From a virus: 53,223 nt of DNA. The notes below the pieces were generated by a model. It had not been told where the DNA came from, ran no database searches, and saw only the letters and a list, made by a program, of their open reading frames with translations. Of this stretch, positions 1,887 to 44,357 are shown piece by piece. The translations under genes were made by a program, and so were the position numbers. How positions within the stretch are numbered: the stretch's first letter is position 1; each line of letters begins with the position of its first letter. The stretch spans positions 1-53,223 of the IMG/VR virus record IMGVR_UViG_3300027749_005768. One strand, given 5' to 3'.

Positions 1887-2645
1887 ATGATTGACTGCGA
1901 TACAGAAACACTATTTTTATCTGATGATCTTGTGTTTTTCACGATTGAGGGAGAAGGAGAATATATCGGACAACCGTCTGTATTTATGAGAATGTCTATG
2001 TGTAATTTGAGCTGTATCGGCTTCGCTTCTGCAGATTCTCCTAATGGTTGTGATTCATTTGTATCGTGGTCTATTAAGAATAAGATGACATTTAACGAAA
2101 TCTTTAAGTTAATGTATGATAATTTTTACGTAGATAAGCTTCGTAAAGGTGCTATTTGGAAGCTTACAGGCGGTGAGCCTATGATTCAGCAAAAGCAGTT
2201 ACTCAAACTTGTACAGGCATTTATTGAAAAGTATGAATTTTTACCTCGTATTGACTTTGAAACTAATGCCACTCTTATGCCTGATCCGAGGTGGAAAAGT
2301 GATTTTAAGGCTACCTTTACTACATCACCTAAACTAACTACTAACGGTGACCCTGAAGAAAAGACATATAAACCTGAGGTACTTAAATGGCATAAAGAAA
2401 ACGGTTCTGGCTTTAAGTTTGTTATTGGTCGATCAGAGGATATTGATGAAATTTGGCGTAAGTATGTTAATGATTTTAACGGTATTAATGTACCTCTAAA
2501 TCGTATTTGGTTTATGCCTTGTTGTGGATCACGTGAAGAGCATCAAGAGAAAGCAGCTACTGTAGCTGAATATGCAAAAGCTATGTGTGTTAACTTTAGT
2601 CCTAGGCTGCACTTAGTACTTTGGAATTTGGCTTTAAAAGTTTAA
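1887..2645 (+). CDS. queE: 7-carboxy-7-deazaguanine synthase (QueE), radical SAM
   Basis: Radical SAM enzyme that contracts 6-carboxytetrahydropterin to 7-carboxy-7-deazaguanine. FFTIEGEGEYIGQPSVFMR (residues 17-35) is the QueE N-terminal signature, KLTGGEPM near 92-99 is the SAM-binding GGEP motif, and FETNAT follows. The cluster-binding cysteines are atypical: Cys39 and Cys43 have the usual CX3C spacing, but the third position (CX2C) is Phe46, and the next cysteine is Cys55 after an 11-residue insertion. Other QueE proteins also use extended spacing, so this is probably active. It overlaps the HNH gene by 1 nt (TAATG). Confidence 0.87.
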   Translation: MIDCDTETLFLSDDLVFFTIEGEGEYIGQPSVFMRMSMCNLSCIGFASADSPNGCDSFVSWSIKNKMTFNEIFKLMYDNFYVDKLRKGAIWKLTGGEPMIQQKQLLKLVQAFIEKYEFLPRIDFETNATLMPDPRWKSDFKATFTTSPKLTTNGDPEEKTYKPEVLKWHKENGSGFKFVIGRSEDIDEIWRKYVNDFNGINVPLNRIWFMPCCGSREEHQEKAATVAEYAKAMCVNFSPRLHLVLWNLALKV

Positions 2646-3244
2646 TGAAAGCCAAAGTATTAGTCCTTAATAAATATTATTTTCCAATTGCTGTAGAGGG
2701 TATTGAAAAAACCTTCGGTAATATTTTTTCTAAATCTGTTATTCCGTTAGATATTAGTTATGAAACTACAGATGAAAATATTGTTAACCAGGAGGTTATT
2801 GATTATTTTGTACCTATACCTATTGTAAAGGAGTGGTTAGAACTACCCATAAGACCGTTTGATGAATATATTCAAACAGCTCGTGGACCTGTTCGTATTC
2901 CATCTGTAGTAGTATGTGCGCGATACGATAAAATTGTTTATAATAGAGTCTCGTTTCCTACTAAACAAAATATTCTTAAACGTGATAACTATACGTGTGT
3001 ATATACCGGGAAAAAACTATCTAAAGAAGAACTTAGTGTCGATCACATTGTACCAAAAAGTCGTGGAGGTAATGATACATGGGAAAATATGGTTTGCTGT
3101 TGTCGTTTGACAAATTCACGAAAAGCATCTCTTACTCCCGAGCAAGTTGGATTAAAGTTAAAATATAAACCATACAATCCAAATAAAGGATTATCTTTTG
3201 AAATTTATAAGGATGAATGGGCTTCGTTCTTGAAAAACATGTAA
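2645..3244 (+). CDS. HNH nuclease-domain protein
   Basis: About 199 residues from the ATG at 2645, chosen because it overlaps the queE stop as TAATG; an in-frame ATG at 2621 lies inside queE. The N-terminal part (KVLVLNKYYFPI) matches the standalone HNH family often annotated as phage HNH endonuclease. The C-terminal HNH core is ILKRDNYTC..TG, then LSVDHIVPKSRGG and WENMVCCCRLTN. His and Asp of the DH motif and the Asn of the third element are present, but two of the four zinc cysteines (CxxC to CVYT, and CxxCN to CRLTN) are replaced. It sits between queE and a P-loop kinase and shares their direction. Confidence 0.75.
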   Translation: MKAKVLVLNKYYFPIAVEGIEKTFGNIFSKSVIPLDISYETTDENIVNQEVIDYFVPIPIVKEWLELPIRPFDEYIQTARGPVRIPSVVVCARYDKIVYNRVSFPTKQNILKRDNYTCVYTGKKLSKEELSVDHIVPKSRGGNDTWENMVCCCRLTNSRKASLTPEQVGLKLKYKPYNPNKGLSFEIYKDEWASFLKNM

Positions 3245-3262
3245 ACTAAACTATATAATATT

Positions 3263-4027
3263 ATGAGAATAGCTGTATCGGGGACTGCGTGTACCGGAAA
3301 ATCCACCCTCGTTAAGAACATCTTAGCTGTGTGGCCTAATTATAAAACACCTTCGAAGACTTATAGAGATCTTATTAAGGAAAAGAATCTACCACATTCA
3401 TCTGATACATCAATTGATACCCAGTGGGATATTCTTAACTTTATGCTCGATCAACTTCAAGCTGTTGATAAAAGCGCTAATATTGTATTTGATAGATGTC
3501 CTCTAGATAATCTTGCATATACTCTCTGGGCTCATGATAAAGGTATTGAAGGCTTTACAAAAGAGTATGTAGATAAAGCTATTAAGCTTACAAAGGAGTC
3601 TATGAGACACTTAGATCTTATTTTGTTATTAAGATACGATACATCTATTAAGATTGTAGATGATGAACTAAGGGATACAGATGTTACCTTTATAGAGGAG
3701 ATTGATAATATTTTTGATGCTCTGTATATACAATATAGACAAAATTATGAAGCAGATATATTCTTCCCAAAAGATGATTCACCAGGTATATTAGTACTAC
3801 CAACTAACCCTCAACAACGTATTGAAATGATTTCAGATTACCTTACACCGGAAGGCGAAATGTATGGAGACGATTCTTCTATCTTTAATCCTAATAATTT
3901 ATCTGAACTAGAAACACTTGTTAAGCAACAAAAAGCAGCACTTGATCAGGAGGAAGCTGAAAAAGCATTGTTCGAAAAGTTTAGTATACCTATTAAGCCT
4001 ATTTCAACTCGTACTATTATTCAGTGA
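3263..4027 (+). CDS. P-loop kinase/ATPase, AAA_28 (NadR-like)
   Basis: 254 residues with Walker A GTACTGKST (residues 7-15) and the FDRCPLDNLAYT segment (77-88) typical of NadR-like nucleoside or nucleotide kinases, then a helical lid. Residues 200-254 are an acidic, charged tail (LSELETLVKQQKAALDQEEAE) absent from the short family members. A clear paralogue lies at 33582-34142 beside queF, formyltransferase and dpdA, sharing the DRC.(L/V)D.L.YT.W..D.G motif. A deoxynucleotide or deazaguanine-nucleoside kinase is possible but the substrate is unknown. The last 24 nt overlap the convergent fibre gene. Confidence 0.75.
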   Translation: MRIAVSGTACTGKSTLVKNILAVWPNYKTPSKTYRDLIKEKNLPHSSDTSIDTQWDILNFMLDQLQAVDKSANIVFDRCPLDNLAYTLWAHDKGIEGFTKEYVDKAIKLTKESMRHLDLILLLRYDTSIKIVDDELRDTDVTFIEEIDNIFDALYIQYRQNYEADIFFPKDDSPGILVLPTNPQQRIEMISDYLTPEGEMYGDDSSIFNPNNLSELETLVKQQKAALDQEEAEKALFEKFSIPIKPISTRTIIQ

Positions 4028-28059: not shown

Positions 28060-31000
28060 TTAAGGTACAATAAAGAGTTGATTGGTAATAGTACTTCTCC
28101 ATATAAAGCCACTACCTAAACCTACAGAAGAAGTAGGAACATTAGTAAGAGCTAGTGTAGGAGCGTATGCTGTATTAGCTGATAGAGCAGTTATATTACC
28201 ACCAGCAATAATAGACGAGCAAGCAGCTGTATTACAAATACAATTATTATTTCCATTTAGTATAGTAGAATAACTAGCACTAGCTGTATTACAGTAGCCA
28301 GACGCTGTGGAATAACTTCCACTGGCTGTATTGAATCTACCACCAATTATAGTAGAATAACAACTACTAGCTGTATTACATGTACCGTTGATTACGGTGG
28401 AATATCTAGCACTAGCTGTATTACAAAAACCGATACCTACAAATGAATTATACTCACCACTAGCTGTATTACTATTACCACCTATAATTGTCGAATACAA
28501 ATTACAAGCTTTATTACCACCACCACCACCAATAAAGGAACTTTCACCACTAGCTTTATTATTACTACCACCAATTATAGAAGAACAACTACCACTAGCC
28601 TCATTACCGATACCACCAACTACTAGTGACGGGTAGTGTCCACTAGCTGTATTATTAATACCACCAACTATAGTTGGAGCATAATAGCCACTAGCTGTAT
28701 TACCTCTACCACCACCTATAAAAGCATCATTATAATTACTAACTGTTGTATTACCGATACCACCAACTATAACAGCATGACAACTACTAGCAGTATTACA
28801 ACAGCCACCACCTATAAAACCATAATCACTATTAGTACTATTACTTCTACCACCACCTATATTAGAATAAGCACCGCTAGCTGTATTACAATAACCACCA
28901 CCTACATTAGACCAATAACTACTAGCTGTATTACATTTACCTCCTGCTATAGTAGAATAAGGAGCACTAACTGTATTATTACGACCGCCAGCTACATTAG
29001 AATAAACACCACTACTGTTAACCGCATTACAAAAACCACCAGCTACATTAGAATAATGACCATTAGCTGTATTACAATAACCACCACCTATATTAGAACA
29101 AAGACCACCGGCTATATTACTTAAACCACCACCTACTGTAGAATAATGACCATTAGCACGGTTAATACTACCACCAGCTACATTAGAATTATTACCGCTA
29201 GCTGTATTATTACCTCTAATTGGTTTAATAGAGGATGTAGCATCTACTAGGGTATAGGGTCTTGATGATAATTCATTATAAGCACTGTTCCAATTACCAC
29301 TTGTAGTTTTAACAGTTGTATATGTATTATTCCATAAACTTGAACTAAGATTTAAAGCTGTTGTAGATGTATAAGCACTGTTCCAATTACCGCTAGTAGA
29401 ATGAACTAAAGCATTTACAGCAGCATCTCCACTACCTCCTCCACCACCTGAAAATATAGTTGCTAGATCAACCCCTGCACTTAAAATTTGACCGGTAACA
29501 TTTAAGTTACCTCTCATTATACCACCGTTAGCAAATTGAACAGCTACAGAACCACCACCTGATGATAGCTCTATAATACGTCTTACATTAGCTAGCTCCA
29601 GGTTGAACCTATTTGAAATAGATTTCTCTAAGTCTGTCTTGATCGTTTTTACATCAACGTCTCCCTTGGTCTCCAAGGTCTTTTCGACTACTATAGAAGG
29701 TACACTATTCTTAATTAGAGATACTTCATCTAAGATAGATTTTTTACTTTGTTCAATAATCTCTATTATATGAGCTTTATCTCTTGTAGTAATATCTGTC
29801 ACACTAGATTCAATTAAAGTAATTCTATCATCATAATAACTTGTAATCTTACCCTCAGCTATTGTAATTTTATTCTCGAGATCACTAGTTAAATCTCTTA
29901 CTGTATTATCTAATGATTCTTTTAAAGTAGTATTATTAATAATAATTTTATTCTCAACATTACTAGTTAATTTCTTAACTGTATTATCTACTGATAATTT
30001 TAAAGTATCAACATTTTGTTGAAGCGTTAGCGTACTACCCTTAAAATCGTTAATAGTTTTTTCAACTATAGTAGAAGAGTTTTGAAAAATACTAATATTA
30101 TCCTCAAGTAGACCGATTTTAGATTGTGTATCTACACTAAGATCATCTATCTTCGATTCTACTGTTACAATACTATCATTAACGTTACTAAGTGTATGTT
30201 GAACATTAGCTTGAATATCATTAATTTTAGACTCCGTACTAACAATACTATCATTAACCACATCAAGCGTATCTTTTACATCAGCATGTATTTTGGATAC
30301 ATTAACATCAACAGTGTTAACTATACCTTCAATTACTCTAACACTAGCATCTGTTGCATCTATCTTTGTTGCTAAACTACTAATATTACTAGCAATTGAT
30401 TCTTCTAATTGTGTCTTAACATTACCAATACGGCTTAAAGCTTTATTAGAGTTTTTAATAATAGAATCATTAAGTTCTACATTTGTTTGCTCTAAGCTAA
30501 GAATAGTACTATCTAACTTACTAACAACGACTTGCACACTCCCCGTAACATTAGCTTCCCAATCACCTAATACTTTAGTAAGTGATTTTGAAACTGTTTC
30601 AAATTTAACATCTAGGTTTTTATTATTTGTTGTATCTCTACTTTCAATCTCTTTAATAAGATTGTTTGTAAGAATATTCTTAGCTAATTCAGATATACGA
30701 TTTTCAAATAACTCTACAGATTGAGTATTTTGATCTTGTATAGTAGACTCTAAGTCTTGCGTTAACTTATCAGAAAGACTATTAATAGACACAACAATAA
30801 AGTCGTAAGCCTTCTCACTCTCTTGTTCTGTATATGTAAAGAGTTCATCACGTGTATTTTCTGTGAGTTGTAAAAACTCATCTAGTAAATCCTTTTTAAA
30901 TTTTTCTTTTGATTTAAAGAATACTTCACGTTCTTGATACTTAGCTTCTTTTACTTCGCGTAAGTTTTGTTGTTTAACAGACTCAGCAAATTCACCCGCT

Positions 31001-31392
31001 AATTTTCTAGCTTGTTTAATCTCCTTAAGTATAGATTCTTTTTTTTCAAAGATAATCTCCTCTACTTCTTCTGCTTCATTCTTAAATTCCTCTAAGACCT
31101 CTTTTGGTTTACTAGTAGTACCTATAAAGGTAGAATTAAATTCGTTAAATATAACTTCGAACCTACCGCGTTGTATTACAAACGGTGCTTCTAATTCCTT
31201 ACCTTCAATTACTATAGGAATATTTACAACAGGATTTCCTTTATATTCGGAAACCTTTTCTGCAATGTATTTATTTCCGTTTATCTCTAACTCAAAAACA
31301 TCAAAAAAGATCTCAGTGTAATCCTTAATAATTAAGATGTTCTGGTTAGAGCTAGTAAAGGTAGGTGTTACCTTTTCGCTAAACAGTCTCAT
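28060..31392 (-). CDS. Large tail fibre/adhesin with Cys-rich repeat domain
   Basis: 1110 residues in four parts. Residues 1-100 are a globular beta-rich attachment domain. Residues 110-620 are mostly coiled coil (repeated SIVSTESKINDIQANVQ-type heptads). Residues 620-720 are a Gly-rich hinge with GGGGGSGD. Residues 730-1075 are about sixteen units of 20-23 residues with the pattern GG..NtAsG.YS.i.GG, like the stacked turns of YadA-type trimeric adhesin heads. About 17 cysteines occur in these repeats, often just before NTAS. The end (GSGFIWRSTITNQLFIVP) lacks an intramolecular chaperone peptidase. It is probably the main host-binding fibre. Confidence 0.85.
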   Translation of the reverse strand: MRLFSEKVTPTFTSSNQNILIIKDYTEIFFDVFELEINGNKYIAEKVSEYKGNPVVNIPIVIEGKELEAPFVIQRGRFEVIFNEFNSTFIGTTSKPKEVLEEFKNEAEEVEEIIFEKKESILKEIKQARKLAGEFAESVKQQNLREVKEAKYQEREVFFKSKEKFKKDLLDEFLQLTENTRDELFTYTEQESEKAYDFIVVSINSLSDKLTQDLESTIQDQNTQSVELFENRISELAKNILTNNLIKEIESRDTTNNKNLDVKFETVSKSLTKVLGDWEANVTGSVQVVVSKLDSTILSLEQTNVELNDSIIKNSNKALSRIGNVKTQLEESIASNISSLATKIDATDASVRVIEGIVNTVDVNVSKIHADVKDTLDVVNDSIVSTESKINDIQANVQHTLSNVNDSIVTVESKIDDLSVDTQSKIGLLEDNISIFQNSSTIVEKTINDFKGSTLTLQQNVDTLKLSVDNTVKKLTSNVENKIIINNTTLKESLDNTVRDLTSDLENKITIAEGKITSYYDDRITLIESSVTDITTRDKAHIIEIIEQSKKSILDEVSLIKNSVPSIVVEKTLETKGDVDVKTIKTDLEKSISNRFNLELANVRRIIELSSGGGSVAVQFANGGIMRGNLNVTGQILSAGVDLATIFSGGGGGSGDAAVNALVHSTSGNWNSAYTSTTALNLSSSLWNNTYTTVKTTSGNWNSAYNELSSRPYTLVDATSSIKPIRGNNTASGNNSNVAGGSINRANGHYSTVGGGLSNIAGGLCSNIGGGYCNTANGHYSNVAGGFCNAVNSSGVYSNVAGGRNNTVSAPYSTIAGGKCNTASSYWSNVGGGYCNTASGAYSNIGGGRSNSTNSDYGFIGGGCCNTASSCHAVIVGGIGNTTVSNYNDAFIGGGRGNTASGYYAPTIVGGINNTASGHYPSLVVGGIGNEASGSCSSIIGGSNNKASGESSFIGGGGGNKACNLYSTIIGGNSNTASGEYNSFVGIGFCNTASARYSTVINGTCNTASSCYSTIIGGRFNTASGSYSTASGYCNTASASYSTILNGNNNCICNTAACSSIIAGGNITALSANTAYAPTLALTNVPTSSVGLGSGFIWRSTITNQLFIVP
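28200..29215 (-). repeat. Coding repeats of the fibre adhesin domain
   Basis: About sixteen degenerate units of roughly 60-69 bp, each encoding G-G-x-x-N-T-A-S-G-x-Y-S-x-I. On the plus strand the visible unit is CTAGCTGTATTA followed by an ACCACC-rich stretch. Units vary in length and sequence, so they are protein repeats and not a satellite or CRISPR. Confidence 0.85.
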
Positions 31393-31859: not shown

Positions 31860-32594
31860 ATGAGAATATACGGTATAAAAGATAAGCAACAAGAAAAAAT
31901 AGTTTATATAGGTAAGACAAAAAACGTTAACGATTTTAAACCGCACGGTAAACATATATTAAAATTATTTAACACGTATCCGGAGAGATATGAATATGTT
32001 ATTATTGAACAGATATATGAGGAAAATATCCTTGACGAGCGTGAAGTATATTACATAGAATTTTATAATACATTCATAAATAATAAGTATTTTAACTTTA
32101 CAAAGGGTGGTAGTGGTGGATTTACTTTAGGAAAATATTCTGCAGAAGAACGCAAAAAAATAAAGCAAAAAGAATTAAAAACAAAAATAGATAACCCCTT
32201 TATAATGAAAGATACAGCAAGACGAGCGAGAGCAACATTTTTAAAGAGACCGTTGGAAGAAATAGAAAAAATTAATAAGTGTAGAATCGAAAAATCTATA
32301 GCAGCTAGAAAAGCTAAACAACTACAAATGACCTCACATGAAAAAGAATGCCGTACTTTAATTCATTCAAATATAGTTAAAGAAATTCATAGACATCGTA
32401 GTAAAGAACAAAAAGATCAAATTAATGCAAAAATAAGTAACACACTAACTGGTGATAGAATAAAGCTTAAAAATAATATAACAGGTGAAGAGAAAGAATT
32501 ACCTTTCTCACAATGGAAAAAACTTTTTAGAGTTGATGTATATCATCTCAAAAAAGGTCTACAAAAAACCTCTCATGGATGGTCACTTCCATGA
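31860..32594 (+). CDS. GIY-YIG homing endonuclease
   Basis: 244 residues. The N-terminal nuclease domain has YGIKDKQQEKIVYIGKT (the GIY...YIG strands, residues 3-19), an Arg in the YPERYEYVIIEQI region, and LDEREVYYIEFYNTF with the catalytic Glu. FTKGGSGGFTLGKYSAEERKKI then starts a NUMOD3-like DNA-binding tail, and the C-terminus (FSQWKKLFRVDVYHLKKGL...SHGW) fits a NUMOD1/HTH end. It stands alone on the plus strand between two minus-strand blocks, as expected for a mobile free-standing endonuclease. A hairpin overlaps its last codons. Confidence 0.85.
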   Translation: MRIYGIKDKQQEKIVYIGKTKNVNDFKPHGKHILKLFNTYPERYEYVIIEQIYEENILDEREVYYIEFYNTFINNKYFNFTKGGSGGFTLGKYSAEERKKIKQKELKTKIDNPFIMKDTARRARATFLKRPLEEIEKINKCRIEKSIAARKAKQLQMTSHEKECRTLIHSNIVKEIHRHRSKEQKDQINAKISNTLTGDRIKLKNNITGEEKELPFSQWKKLFRVDVYHLKKGLQKTSHGWSLP

Positions 32595-32620: not shown

Positions 32621-33565
32621 TTATTGCTTTGGCGTTTTGACATGTAATACCGTCTCATCACTTAACGTATAATGAAGCAATTTACTATCAGAAACACGTT
32701 CTGGATTAATATCCCAACCACCACGTCGTGCATAAAGACACTTTACAGATAATTCATCTGGTTGTAATGTATCTAATAAACGCTTATAGATAGCTTCACA
32801 AATTTCTTCATGAAAGTGACATTCGTCTCTGAAAGATACAATATACTTTAGTAGTGAAATAGGGTCTACAGTTTTATTACCTTTTATTGTAATATATACA
32901 TCACCTGTATCTGGTTGAGCTGTTACTCTGCAACGGGATCTTAATAATGCGCTATGATACTTTTCTTCTCCAATAACAGAATCAATAACACTAAGTAACT
33001 CAGGAGTTTCAGTATATGTATCAAAAGTTTCATTTTCAATAGGGTATTCATCTTCTAGTGTAATATAAGTACTTTTTATATTACGTTGATGACTCCACTC
33101 TTCACGCGCTAGTGTATTATCAATAAGAGCAATATAATTTGAAATAATTTTAACTGTTACCTCAGTTTCTAGCAATTCTGATAGATCTTTAATCGCACGG
33201 TTCTTGATTTCCTCAAGTACTTCTTGAGCTGTATTACCAAGTCTTGTCATACTAAACGAGTTAAAATAAAGCTTAGTAGATTTAGATTCAACAATATATT
33301 TATTACTGCATGGATAAACAAACTTACAAATACCTACAACAGGTAATCCATTATTTGTAAGACCTGTAACTTCATACCCGTTCCAGGTATCATAGCCTAC
33401 AAACGGAAGATCTTCATCTTCAAGACCAAGATGCGTTCTATTTGATTGTCGTGGTTCACGAACTAATAGTGATGGGTCGTATATTGCAGCGTACTCTGAT
33501 GATTGACCGAGATGCTTACTAATACGAGAATTATCTAATTCTACTGCTTTCTTCTTTGTTGCCAT
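32621..33565 (-). CDS. queF: 7-cyano-7-deazaguanine reductase (QueF), long form
   Basis: 314 residues from the ATG at 33565-33563, chosen because the homologous part starts there; the frame is open for 11 more codons. QueF reduces the nitrile of preQ0 to the aminomethyl of preQ1 with NADPH. The QueF signature ESKSTKLY is at 93-100. The second half holds the nucleophile and general acid in RCRVTAQPD (Cys212, Asp219), then SLLKYIVSFRDECHFHEE (Glu253/Glu254) and ARRGGWDINPER. Both catalytic residues are intact, so this is a true reductase, not an amidotransferase-like QueF-L. It is last in a four-gene set with dpdA. Confidence 0.92.
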   Translation of the reverse strand: MATKKKAVELDNSRISKHLGQSSEYAAIYDPSLLVREPRQSNRTHLGLEDEDLPFVGYDTWNGYEVTGLTNNGLPVVGICKFVYPCSNKYIVESKSTKLYFNSFSMTRLGNTAQEVLEEIKNRAIKDLSELLETEVTVKIISNYIALIDNTLAREEWSHQRNIKSTYITLEDEYPIENETFDTYTETPELLSVIDSVIGEEKYHSALLRSRCRVTAQPDTGDVYITIKGNKTVDPISLLKYIVSFRDECHFHEEICEAIYKRLLDTLQPDELSVKCLYARRGGWDINPERVSDSKLLHYTLSDETVLHVKTPKQ

Positions 33566-33581
33566 AATATATTTTAATTTA

Positions 33582-34142
33582 TTAAATGTTAATATCAAGA
33601 CCTTTTTCTTTAAGAGTCTCTTTAATTATTTGTAATCTTTCTTCTACTGTACCTTTTAGAATTACCAAATTATCTTGCGGATATCTAAAATGTTTATCAA
33701 ATAAATCGATAATATCTTCTCTAAATTTAGTATTAACACTTCTCTCACCATCATCTTCTAGTACAACATCTTCAGGTGAAGTGTAAAAAATAACATCATA
33801 CTTATGAACAGTATTTTCATATACTATTCTTGCAAAACTATAAGCACTCATATCAAGACCCTGATCACACAGCCAATGCGTATATACTAAACCATCTACT
33901 GAGCAACGATCTAAAATAACGTTAGTATCTTTATACTCAACAGCATAAGCATTTTTAACATGCTCTGCCATAATCATCATCTGAGTCATAACATTACCTG
34001 CTTCATTAATAGGTAAATCATATAATCTCTTTACAAGTCTTGTAACTTCAGGTACAAATTTAATATTAGAATTACGTTCTGCAAGATACTTTAGTAATGT
34101 AGTTTTTCCACTCGACTGTGGTCCCGAAAAAGAAATTAGCAT
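33582..34142 (-). CDS. P-loop kinase/ATPase, AAA_28 (NadR-like), in the dpd set
   Basis: 186 residues. Walker A is SGPQSSGKTT (5-14), with VILDRCSVDGLVYTHWLCDQGLD about 75-97 and an FREDIIDLFD helix. It resembles the protein at 3263-4027 in size of core, motifs and spacing, but lacks that protein's acidic tail. It overlaps the formyltransferase gene by 7 nt and is followed 16 nt later by queF, so it is firmly inside the modification set. A nucleotide or nucleoside kinase for a modified guanine is a reasonable idea; the substrate is not evident. Confidence 0.78.
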   Translation of the reverse strand: MLISFSGPQSSGKTTLLKYLAERNSNIKFVPEVTRLVKRLYDLPINEAGNVMTQMMIMAEHVKNAYAVEYKDTNVILDRCSVDGLVYTHWLCDQGLDMSAYSFARIVYENTVHKYDVIFYTSPEDVVLEDDGERSVNTKFREDIIDLFDKHFRYPQDNLVILKGTVEERLQIIKETLKEKGLDINI

Positions 34143-34696
34143 ACAATATTATAACGTTTATTAGTAAAGAAATCAACCCATGAATTGAGAGAAGTTTGCT
34201 TTAAAATATTGTAGGTATTATCTAGTGTATCGCAATGCACGTTAGATATTTTATCATAACAGATAATACTACCACAGTCAATATCTTTTGTAACTTCATG
34301 AATAACACTACCAACATACAAGTAATCTCCTATTCTATCATAAGCTCGTTGTTGTGGATCTTTACCTTTTAATTGTGGATAATAATTAATTAGTCCAGGA
34401 TGACCATTATAAATTTTAAACTCCTCACAAATCTCTGGAGGAATAATATTAAGCCAACCATGTAAAGTAATAATATCAAAATCTTTAAACACAGATCTAT
34501 AAAACTCAAGCTTTATATCTCTAAATCGACCTTTAATACTATTAACAACAATAGACTTACAACAGTTATTAATTTCAGGATCCCACTTATTGTGATCTAA
34601 ATTATCTGTAATAACTCGATCAGGTGAATAACCAAGACTTTTAGAAAGATTAACAATCTCACTTCCAGTCATAGAGTAGAGCGCTAGCCATTTCAT
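34136..34696 (-). CDS. dpdN: Formyltransferase-fold protein, candidate DpdN (dPreQ1 formyltransferase)
   Basis: 186 residues with the PurN/Fmt formyltransferase fold. The catalytic triad of GAR transformylase (Asn, His, Asp) is visible as IYNGHPGLI (Asn97, His99) and TKDIDCGSII (Asp140), and the intervening PQLKGKDPQQRAY matches the 'lP.ykG..p...A' loop. It overlaps dpdA by 4 nt and the kinase by 7 nt. Published work on phage 7-deazaguanines (Cui et al.) named a dPreQ1 formyltransferase DpdN that makes formylamino-dPreQ1; this gene fits that role by fold and place. Simple purine biosynthesis (PurN) is less likely here. Confidence 0.75.
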   Translation of the reverse strand: MKWLALYSMTGSEIVNLSKSLGYSPDRVITDNLDHNKWDPEINNCCKSIVVNSIKGRFRDIKLEFYRSVFKDFDIITLHGWLNIIPPEICEEFKIYNGHPGLINYYPQLKGKDPQQRAYDRIGDYLYVGSVIHEVTKDIDCGSIICYDKISNVHCDTLDNTYNILKQTSLNSWVDFFTNKRYNIVC

Positions 34697-35496
34697 GGAT
34701 TACTAATATTACGAAATTCTTCTACGTTAAAAATAATATCATTCATCTGATCTGGAGTCAGTTCAGCATCAATAAGATCTGCTAGAAGAACCTTAGGTTT
34801 GTGATAAAGTCCAATACCTTTAAGGTAACGAGAACCTGTAATACCAGCTACAACAGGATTAGAAGTATCTACACTACGTATACTCTTATTATAAGCGTAA
34901 TAGCCAAACTCTTTTGCAAGCGAACAACCTAACAAATGATGAGGTTTTGTATACTCCCAAATACCGTCAGCCATTAGCATATTAATAAGCTTCTGACGAC
35001 CATCACACATTCGCTCTAGTTTTGCTTGTTCAGGATTATCACTTGTAGCTCTGCCAATGATCTGATAATATGAATAATCAAAAGAGATTGCAATATAATC
35101 AGCATATGCAACCATAAACTCATAACACGCAATAAGTTCATCATATGTCTTACCTTGAACAACACCAACTTTAAGTCCAGGTAGATCCTGATATTCGTTT
35201 GTAAAATGGTAGAACGATGTTCGTGTCTCTTTATAATCTTCTAAGACATCAGGTACAATATAGTAAGTAGGTTTAAGCTCTTCAATATATTCTGCATACT
35301 TATCACTATTAAAAGCTTCACCAAGCTCAAAGATTGAGTTATCAAGCATTACCTCACGACCGAGATTTAAAGATGTCTTAAAGAAATTATAATACTTTGG
35401 ATGTGTATCGAAGAGATGCACGAGAGCGTAATCGAAGTCATTATAGTGCCTAGAATGATCTAGAATAGAAATAGGAGTTTCGTGCGTTACTAACAT
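34693..35496 (-). CDS. dpdA: DpdA-like DNA guanine transglycosylase
   Basis: 267 residues, TGT-related TIM barrel of the phage DpdA type, which exchanges guanine in DNA for a 7-deazaguanine base. Visible conserved points are LDNSIFE (Asp52, the substrate-binding Asp region of TGT), YIVPDVLED (Asp83), GVVQGKTYDEL (111-121), YIAISFDY, HHLLGCSLAKEFGYY (186-200) and SIRSVDTSNPV (Asp210, candidate nucleophile). No tRNA-TGT zinc site is seen. Subfamily (probably DpdA2) should be set by phylogeny. First gene of the dpdA-formyltransferase-kinase-queF set, with a TATAATA box 5 nt before its ATG. Confidence 0.85.
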   Translation of the reverse strand: MLVTHETPISILDHSRHYNDFDYALVHLFDTHPKYYNFFKTSLNLGREVMLDNSIFELGEAFNSDKYAEYIEELKPTYYIVPDVLEDYKETRTSFYHFTNEYQDLPGLKVGVVQGKTYDELIACYEFMVAYADYIAISFDYSYYQIIGRATSDNPEQAKLERMCDGRQKLINMLMADGIWEYTKPHHLLGCSLAKEFGYYAYNKSIRSVDTSNPVVAGITGSRYLKGIGLYHKPKVLLADLIDAELTPDQMNDIIFNVEEFRNISNP

Positions 35497-43922: not shown

Positions 43923-44357
43923 TTACTCCCATGGGAAGACAAGCCACGTTTTTTCAGGAACTGAAAACCCATAATAATCAACCATATGTGATGCTTTATC
44001 CTTTACAAATAAAGACGCATACTCAAAAGTGTGTAAATCTTCATGACTATAAAGATATTGAAAAATACGAAATGTATTACCTGAATCGCAAATATCATCT
44101 ACAACTAGATATTTAGATCTAGTTGTTAGTAAATTAGGTTGCTGATATAAAACGTAGTTATCTTCCTGAACTTGATTATTATATGTATTAACACCGAACG
44201 TTAATACTTTTTTATTAAGTTTATAACCTAACATTGTTGCAGGAATAAGTCCTCCACGACCGATTCCAATAATATAGTCGTAGTCTAAACTAACTCTCTC
44301 TGCAAGTTGATCTACCATAAAGGCAATATTTTCATAACTAACAGACTTCTTTACCAT
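43923..44357 (-). CDS. Type I phosphoribosyltransferase
   Basis: 144 residues. DYIIGIGRGGLIPATML (27-43) and the PRPP-binding loop YLVVDDICDSGNTF (about 83-96) are diagnostic of purine/xanthine-type phosphoribosyltransferases, and the end WLVFPWE matches the family's W-V-x-F-P-W-E. It could salvage purine bases or modified guanines. Phosphoribosyltransferases have been noted near phage deazaguanine genes, but this one is 8 kb from dpdA. Confidence 0.87.
   Translation of the reverse strand: MVKKSVSYENIAFMVDQLAERVSLDYDYIIGIGRGGLIPATMLGYKLNKKVLTFGVNTYNNQVQEDNYVLYQQPNLLTTRSKYLVVDDICDSGNTFRIFQYLYSHEDLHTFEYASLFVKDKASHMVDYYGFSVPEKTWLVFPWE

Follow-up and report, generated by a model that had tools for sequence, protein, structure and literature searches.

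Four tightly packed minus-strand genes of a virus are likely to form the second half of a phage pathway for 7-deazaguanine DNA modification, which would place dPreQ1, probably in its formylated form (formylamino-dPreQ1), in the DNA and thereby block restriction; this supports the interpretation given in an earlier note on the sequence. The genes lie within a window of 53,223 bases (33% G+C; IMG/VR virus record IMGVR_UViG_3300027749_005768), which is the whole stretch of DNA analysed here. In the predicted order of reactions, FolE, QueD, QueE and QueC would convert GTP to preQ0 (folE and queC lying off this fragment), and QueF would reduce preQ0 to preQ1 with NADPH. A small DpdA of the DpdA3 type would replace guanines in the phage DNA, perhaps a great many or even all of them, with the deazaguanine, and a formyltransferase (FT) would use 10-formyltetrahydrofolate to N-formylate the aminomethyl group, either on the free base or on DNA. 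The expected product in the virion DNA, 7-(formylamino)methyl-7-deazaguanine (formylamino-dPreQ1), should protect it from restriction enzymes. The remaining gene would encode an active nucleoside- or nucleotide-type kinase of the same pathway, serving for example the displaced guanine or the modified nucleotide. Formylamino-dPreQ1 and the DpdN formyltransferase have reportedly been described by Cui et al. 2023. The chemistry is of this already described kind; the gene set proves to be widespread, and the near-constant kinase partner is new. If the proposal is correct, uncultured phages would commonly carry N-formylated deazaguanine DNA, which has been described in very few phages so far, and the conserved operon would offer a clean test of wholesale guanine replacement by DpdA3 phages while pointing to their kinase partner.

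Gene content and linkage of the operon

The earlier note had described four adjoining minus-strand genes at positions 32621-35496, which the open reading frames and their Pfam and PHROG matches bear out. The dpdA gene (34693-35496, minus strand) encodes a 267-aa protein assigned to the DpdA3 type of DNA guanine transglycosylases, the type found in Campylobacter and Flavobacterium phages. It is followed on the minus strand by a dpdN-like FT gene (34136-34696; PF00551, 3e-8), which overlaps it by 4 nt, and by a gene for a P-loop kinase of the thymidylate kinase/deoxynucleoside kinase/NadR-kinase superfamily (33582-34142; PF13521 (AAA_28), 6.5e-18), which overlaps the FT gene by 7 nt. The last gene, queF (32621-33565, minus strand), encodes a bimodular protein of the NADPH-dependent preQ0 reductase type (QueF_N, 8e-31; QueF, 1e-19). 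Its listed open reading frame starts with TTG at 33598, but the ATG at 33565, shortly past the kinase stop codon, is the likely start, and the numbering of Cys212 and Asp219 used below arises from it.

At the opposite end of the window, queD and queE were found on the plus strand, in agreement with the earlier note. The queD gene (384-1082) encodes a 6-carboxytetrahydropterin synthase-like protein (PF01242, 1.2e-14; TIGR03367, 3e-7, under its cut-off), and queE (1887-2645) a 7-carboxy-7-deazaguanine synthase-like radical SAM protein (PHROG 2076 QueE-like, 5.8e-40; TIGR03963, 8e-14, under its cut-off). The search for folE and queC that had been proposed gave a divided answer. Neither gene is present on the 53-kb fragment, but both are carried by a 105-kb contig of the closest larger relative (locus L085), whose DpdA is 85% identical to that of the window and which also has the FT and the kinase. 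Among 13 records searched, queC was found in 11 and folE in 10. Rfam families, the preQ1 riboswitch included, and tRNAs were looked for in the 53,223-base window and not found.

Comparison of the four operon genes with those of the nearest large relative gave dN/dS values of ~0.12-0.29 (NG86; synonymous sites partly saturated), indicating that all four are under purifying selection. These low values argue against a chance assembly of the gene set, as does the gene order, which recurs in one isolated phage and dozens of viruses from metagenomes.

The linkage was examined in a census of distinct dpdA loci for which 3.5 kb or more of downstream sequence was available. The order dpdA-FT-kinase-queF occurs in 83 such loci, dpdA-kinase-queF without the FT in 32, and dpdA-FT-queF without the kinase in 2; no FT-bearing dpdA locus without QueF was found among them. 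Three loci, all from the CP220 group of Campylobacter phages, carry dpdA and the kinase only, and in nine dpdA loci the FT lies farther off, with a gap of ~6.5 kb between dpdA and FT-kinase-queF. Some of the census loci were found by FT similarity, which inflates the FT counts; scans based on DpdA are free of that bias. More than 500 stretches encoding FT relatives, and more than 500 encoding DpdA relatives, came out of the scans for the two proteins. The constant company of QueF with the FT at dpdA loci, and the lack of the FT in the QueF-less CP220 group, would be expected if the FT acts on the amine of preQ1.

The loci that lack the FT fall, on the DpdA tree, into one main clade, the CP220 group and two single tips; the tips may reflect assembly or truncation. 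FT presence requires 4 changes on this tree, compared with 9.5 in shuffles. Within the FT-less clade, no FT was found on contigs up to 93 kb, and a 185-kb contig gave a weak match only. The division predicts formylamino-dPreQ1 in the FT-bearing clade and plain dPreQ1 in the FT-less one, so that these sister clades would form a natural comparison.

Formyltransferase and kinase

The catalytic triad that had been noticed in the FT (Asn97, His99 and Asp140) is intact, and it is invariant in 74 distinct relatives. The protein matches Formyl_trans_N at 3.2e-8, and in the motif alignment the folate-side G-x-L-x-I-x-P segment is kept alongside the triad. It is 41% identical to the FT of the Flavobacterium phage immuto. 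Among 84,980 species genomes, the FT family is represented by no more than 2 fragmentary matches, in MAGs.

A rival reading holds that the DNA carries dPreQ1 only and that the FT is a PurN of purine biosynthesis, or some other folate enzyme, placed in the operon by chance. PurN is the best curated model (TIGR00639, 1.3e-8), genuine purN genes are also carried by phages, and the DpdA clade with kinase and queF but no FT suggests that the FT is dispensable. However, the match reaches 34.6 bits against a PurN cut-off of 150.1, and the substrate side of the protein differs. The SGNGSN loop of PurN binds the phosphate of the substrate, GAR. This loop is kept as SGNGSN or SGNGTN in the PurN proteins of E. 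coli, an Acinetobacter phage and cyanophages, whereas the operon FTs carry S-x-T-G-x-E (S8-x-T-G11-S-E13 in the window), in which Glu13 is invariant among relatives. A glutamate at this position would be unfavourable for a phosphate and favourable for a cationic amine like that of preQ1. In the tree, 29 operon FTs are split from 7 references at 100/98, with Fmt and PurU on long branches; the firm grouping with PurN that the earlier note had named as counter-evidence did not occur. The FT also keeps its place between dpdA and kinase/queF across the deep DpdA tree. Judged by its sequence, the FT is not a PurN, and a chance folate enzyme in this operon is very improbable.

One FT subclade departs from this linkage. 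In 13 FT loci, no dpdA (13 searched) or queF (11 searched) was found on contigs up to 61 kb, which are fragments, and nine representatives of these loci form one clade in the tree. A class II glutamine amidotransferase gene lies directly upstream of the FT gene and overlaps it in all members, and queC lies upstream in those members that reach far enough. A similar amidotransferase directly follows dpdA-FT-kinase-queF-queC in loci L039, L044, L073 and L077; the subclade protein plausibly supplies ammonia to QueC. The subclade may represent the same pathway in a rearranged form, or its FT could have another substrate. It weakens the generalization that the FT occurs only with queF. In a separate locus (L083), a 447-aa gene beside the FT was first taken for a possible DpdA; its product is an acidic low-complexity protein and probably structural.

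The kinase scores above the PF13521 cut-off and exhibits a P-loop kinase fold with a (D/E)R motif, in which K13, D78 and R79 are conserved. Thymidylate kinase (TMK), NadR kinase and deoxynucleoside kinase (dNK) are the best fold matches of its AlphaFold model (pLDDT 93.7), to about the same degree. Of the 120 loci with a contiguous downstream operon, the distant CP220 included, 118 have it next to dpdA, directly or after the FT. Its near-constant presence beside DpdA3, exceeding that of the FT and of QueF, is a new finding; the earlier note had assigned the kinase no role. It is nevertheless not obligatory, as one 160-kb contig carrying dpdA-FT-queF lacks it entirely. A second, longer AAA_28 kinase (3263-4027, plus strand; PF13521, 1.1e-13) is encoded near queE; it is a paralogue of the operon kinase, paralogues of similar length occur in several relatives, and it is possibly related to the pathway.

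The role of the operon kinase is most likely nucleotide supply or salvage around the base exchange. A stronger reading would make it a core part of DpdA3 systems, acting on a deazaguanine (deoxy)nucleotide or on the displaced guanine; DNA transglycosylation alone would then not suffice for complete replacement, which would depend on a nucleotide-level step (pre-replicative incorporation or obligate salvage). We consider this reading unlikely. Its most explicit form, which we hold to be very unlikely, is that the base exchange by DpdA3 takes place at the level of a mononucleotide, the kinase raises the product towards the dNTP and the polymerase incorporates it, giving complete guanine replacement. 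The presence of a kinase with the TMK/dNK/NadR fold beside dpdA in nearly all contiguous loci, CP220 included, is in line with such a route, but the 160-kb contig has the other three genes and no such kinase. Moreover, all DpdA and TGT enzymes characterised to our knowledge act on polynucleotides. Crippen et al. 2019 reportedly saw no dADG phosphates in cells infected with CP220-type phages, so that nucleotide-level incorporation, although possible, is disfavoured.

QueF and DpdA

Cys212 and Asp219 of QueF, which the earlier note had found intact, align with the catalytic Cys/Asp pair of E. coli QueF. The NADPH motif is also present, with ESKSTKLY at positions 93-100 (E93-S-K-S-x-K-L-Y), and fits the pattern E(S/L)K(S/A)xK(L/Y)(Y/F/W). 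Both features show little or no variation among 105 relatives. Against the TIGR03138 equivalog, QueF scores 233.9 bits, under the cut-off of 293.45 that marks the level for confident naming; the catalytic features of the family are kept nonetheless. Phage QueF is difficult to distinguish by sequence from the QueF-like amidotransferase, QueF-L (PMC6884629). An amidotransferase in the place of QueF would yield DNA with dG+ or a formylated amidine and not dPreQ1, and the FT subclade, whose contigs lack queF and pair the FT with a class II glutaminase and queC, could be taken in its favour. Both reductase features of the window protein speak against this, and dPreQ1 was demonstrated in phage Dp-1, which carries such a protein (PMC6884629). 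An amidotransferase is therefore highly improbable here. A reductase is the better reading of the Cys/Asp pair and the NADPH motif, which favours the reaction assigned earlier to QueF, the formation of preQ1 from preQ0.

The window DpdA matches PHROG 19058 at 1e-53 and no Pfam family. Sequence searches of Pfam, NCBIfam and the PDB returned nothing credible, and the Pfam TGT model does not match the protein. Its AlphaFold model (40 relatives in the alignment; pLDDT 94.9) has a TGT-type TIM barrel, and the best 46 PDB matches in Foldseek are TGTs and the DNA preQ0 insertase DpdA (7ui4), with E values from 2e-7 for the TGTs and 1e-5 for 7ui4. The likeness to TGT is structural only: when the DpdA profile was aligned to E. 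coli Tgt by hhalign, the result was not significant (3% probability), although GVVQG was set against GIIQG and KPHHLLG against KPRYLMG. Asp52, Gln114 and Asp210 are located at barrel strand ends in the model and are invariant in 105 relatives. Matched to TGT by motifs, Asp52 and Asp210 are candidate catalytic aspartates and Gln114 is a candidate base-binding glutamine.

The window DpdA is 46.6% identical to that of immuto and 42% identical to the CP220 protein over 99% of its length (E 9e-49). This homology and the TGT/DpdA fold of the model uphold the original description of the gene product as a DpdA-like transglycosylase. A scan with the CP220 DpdA returned the known Campylobacter phages and two weak matches only. 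In the CP220 genus, guanine replacement by dADG is reportedly 100%, and we take the DpdA group of this genus to be the DpdA3 named by Cui et al. 2023. The homology to the CP220 DpdA makes extensive guanine replacement a reasonable prediction, and by this analogy replacement at very many or all guanines is plausible. In the passage of PMC8713573 that cites Crippen et al. 2019, guanosine is stated to be replaced by deoxyinosine or deazaguanosine in the two known genera of Campylobacter phages. It is extremely unlikely that the genes raise preQ1 or queuosine in host tRNA and thereby aid translation with no DNA modification, a role proposed earlier for phages that carry queuosine genes but lack a recognised DpdA (PMC6884629): preQ1 is a tRNA precursor, but the window protein has no Pfam TGT match and is homologous to proteins of Campylobacter phages with deazaguanine DNA (as given in that passage of PMC8713573), and N-formylation would stop onward queuosine synthesis.

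Comparison with known systems

At the level of single enzymes, the window QueF shares with E. coli QueF the two-domain architecture, the Cys/Asp pair, ESKSxKLY and 36% identity, and differs in having linker insertions. The FT resembles PurN, including cyanophage PurN, in the Formyl_trans_N fold, the Asn-His-Asp triad and the folate-side segment; it differs in lacking the SGNGSN loop, in an insertion before LKGKDPQ and in its separate clade. A functional counterpart is DpdN, which is reportedly the predicted dPreQ1 formyltransferase of Cui et al. 2023 in a phage with dpdA and queF. The features expected of a DpdN, Formyl_trans_N with Asn/His/Asp and linkage to dpdA and queF, are found in the window FT, the 13-locus subclade being the exception to the linkage.

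Among whole systems, the Campylobacter Firehammervirus CP220 shares the homologous DpdA and a homologous kinase directly downstream. In contrast to the window, no FT or QueF adjoins its dpdA, and its reported base is an amide, dADG, and not an amine. The isolated Flavobacterium phage vB_FspM_immuto_2-6A (MW353175) has the same dpdA-FT-kinase-queF order, with QueD, QueE and FolE encoded nearby and QueC in the same genome. It belongs to another lineage, and a 153-bp open reading frame lies between its dpdA and FT genes; identity to the window proteins is 41-47% for dpdA, FT and queF, and 30% for the kinase.

A glutamine amidotransferase beside queC

A standalone class II glutamine amidotransferase overlaps the dpdN-like formyltransferase gene near queC in the related viral locus L083 (7199-10549) and in 12 more formyltransferase loci. 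The same type of protein is encoded directly after queC in dpdA-formyltransferase-kinase-queF-queC operons (L039, 8961-10371; L044, 12168-13576). The standalone protein begins with MCG or MCA, and it looks like a split form of Gat-QueC that serves as the ammonia source for QueC.

Kinase paralogues and a kinase-free contig

A second AAA_28 kinase of 254 aa, paralogous to the operon kinase, is encoded near queE (window 3263-4027). Similar paralogues are present in several relatives, and the one in a Campylobacter phage adjoins a dUTPase. The 160-kb L046 contig carries the gene series dpdA-formyltransferase-queF-queC, and no kinase copy was found anywhere on it, which makes it a natural test case for the role of the operon kinase.

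Other genes of the window

An ORF at 2621-3244, flanked by queE and the second kinase gene, contains an HNH region similar to those of Cas9d (6e-17) and IscB (4e-12) and is probably a standalone HNH endonuclease. A GIY-YIG endonuclease-like ORF (31860-32594, plus strand) directly adjoins queF, possibly as a homing intruder beside the operon. The 1110-aa protein encoded at 28060-31392, which ends in many short YSTIxGGxxNTAS-like repeats, is probably a tail fibre or adhesin. The small phosphoribosyltransferase at 43923-44357 could salvage the guanine released by DpdA; in the isolated Flavobacterium phage vB_FspM_immuto_2-6A, a phosphoribosyltransferase likewise occurs, located between queE and folE.
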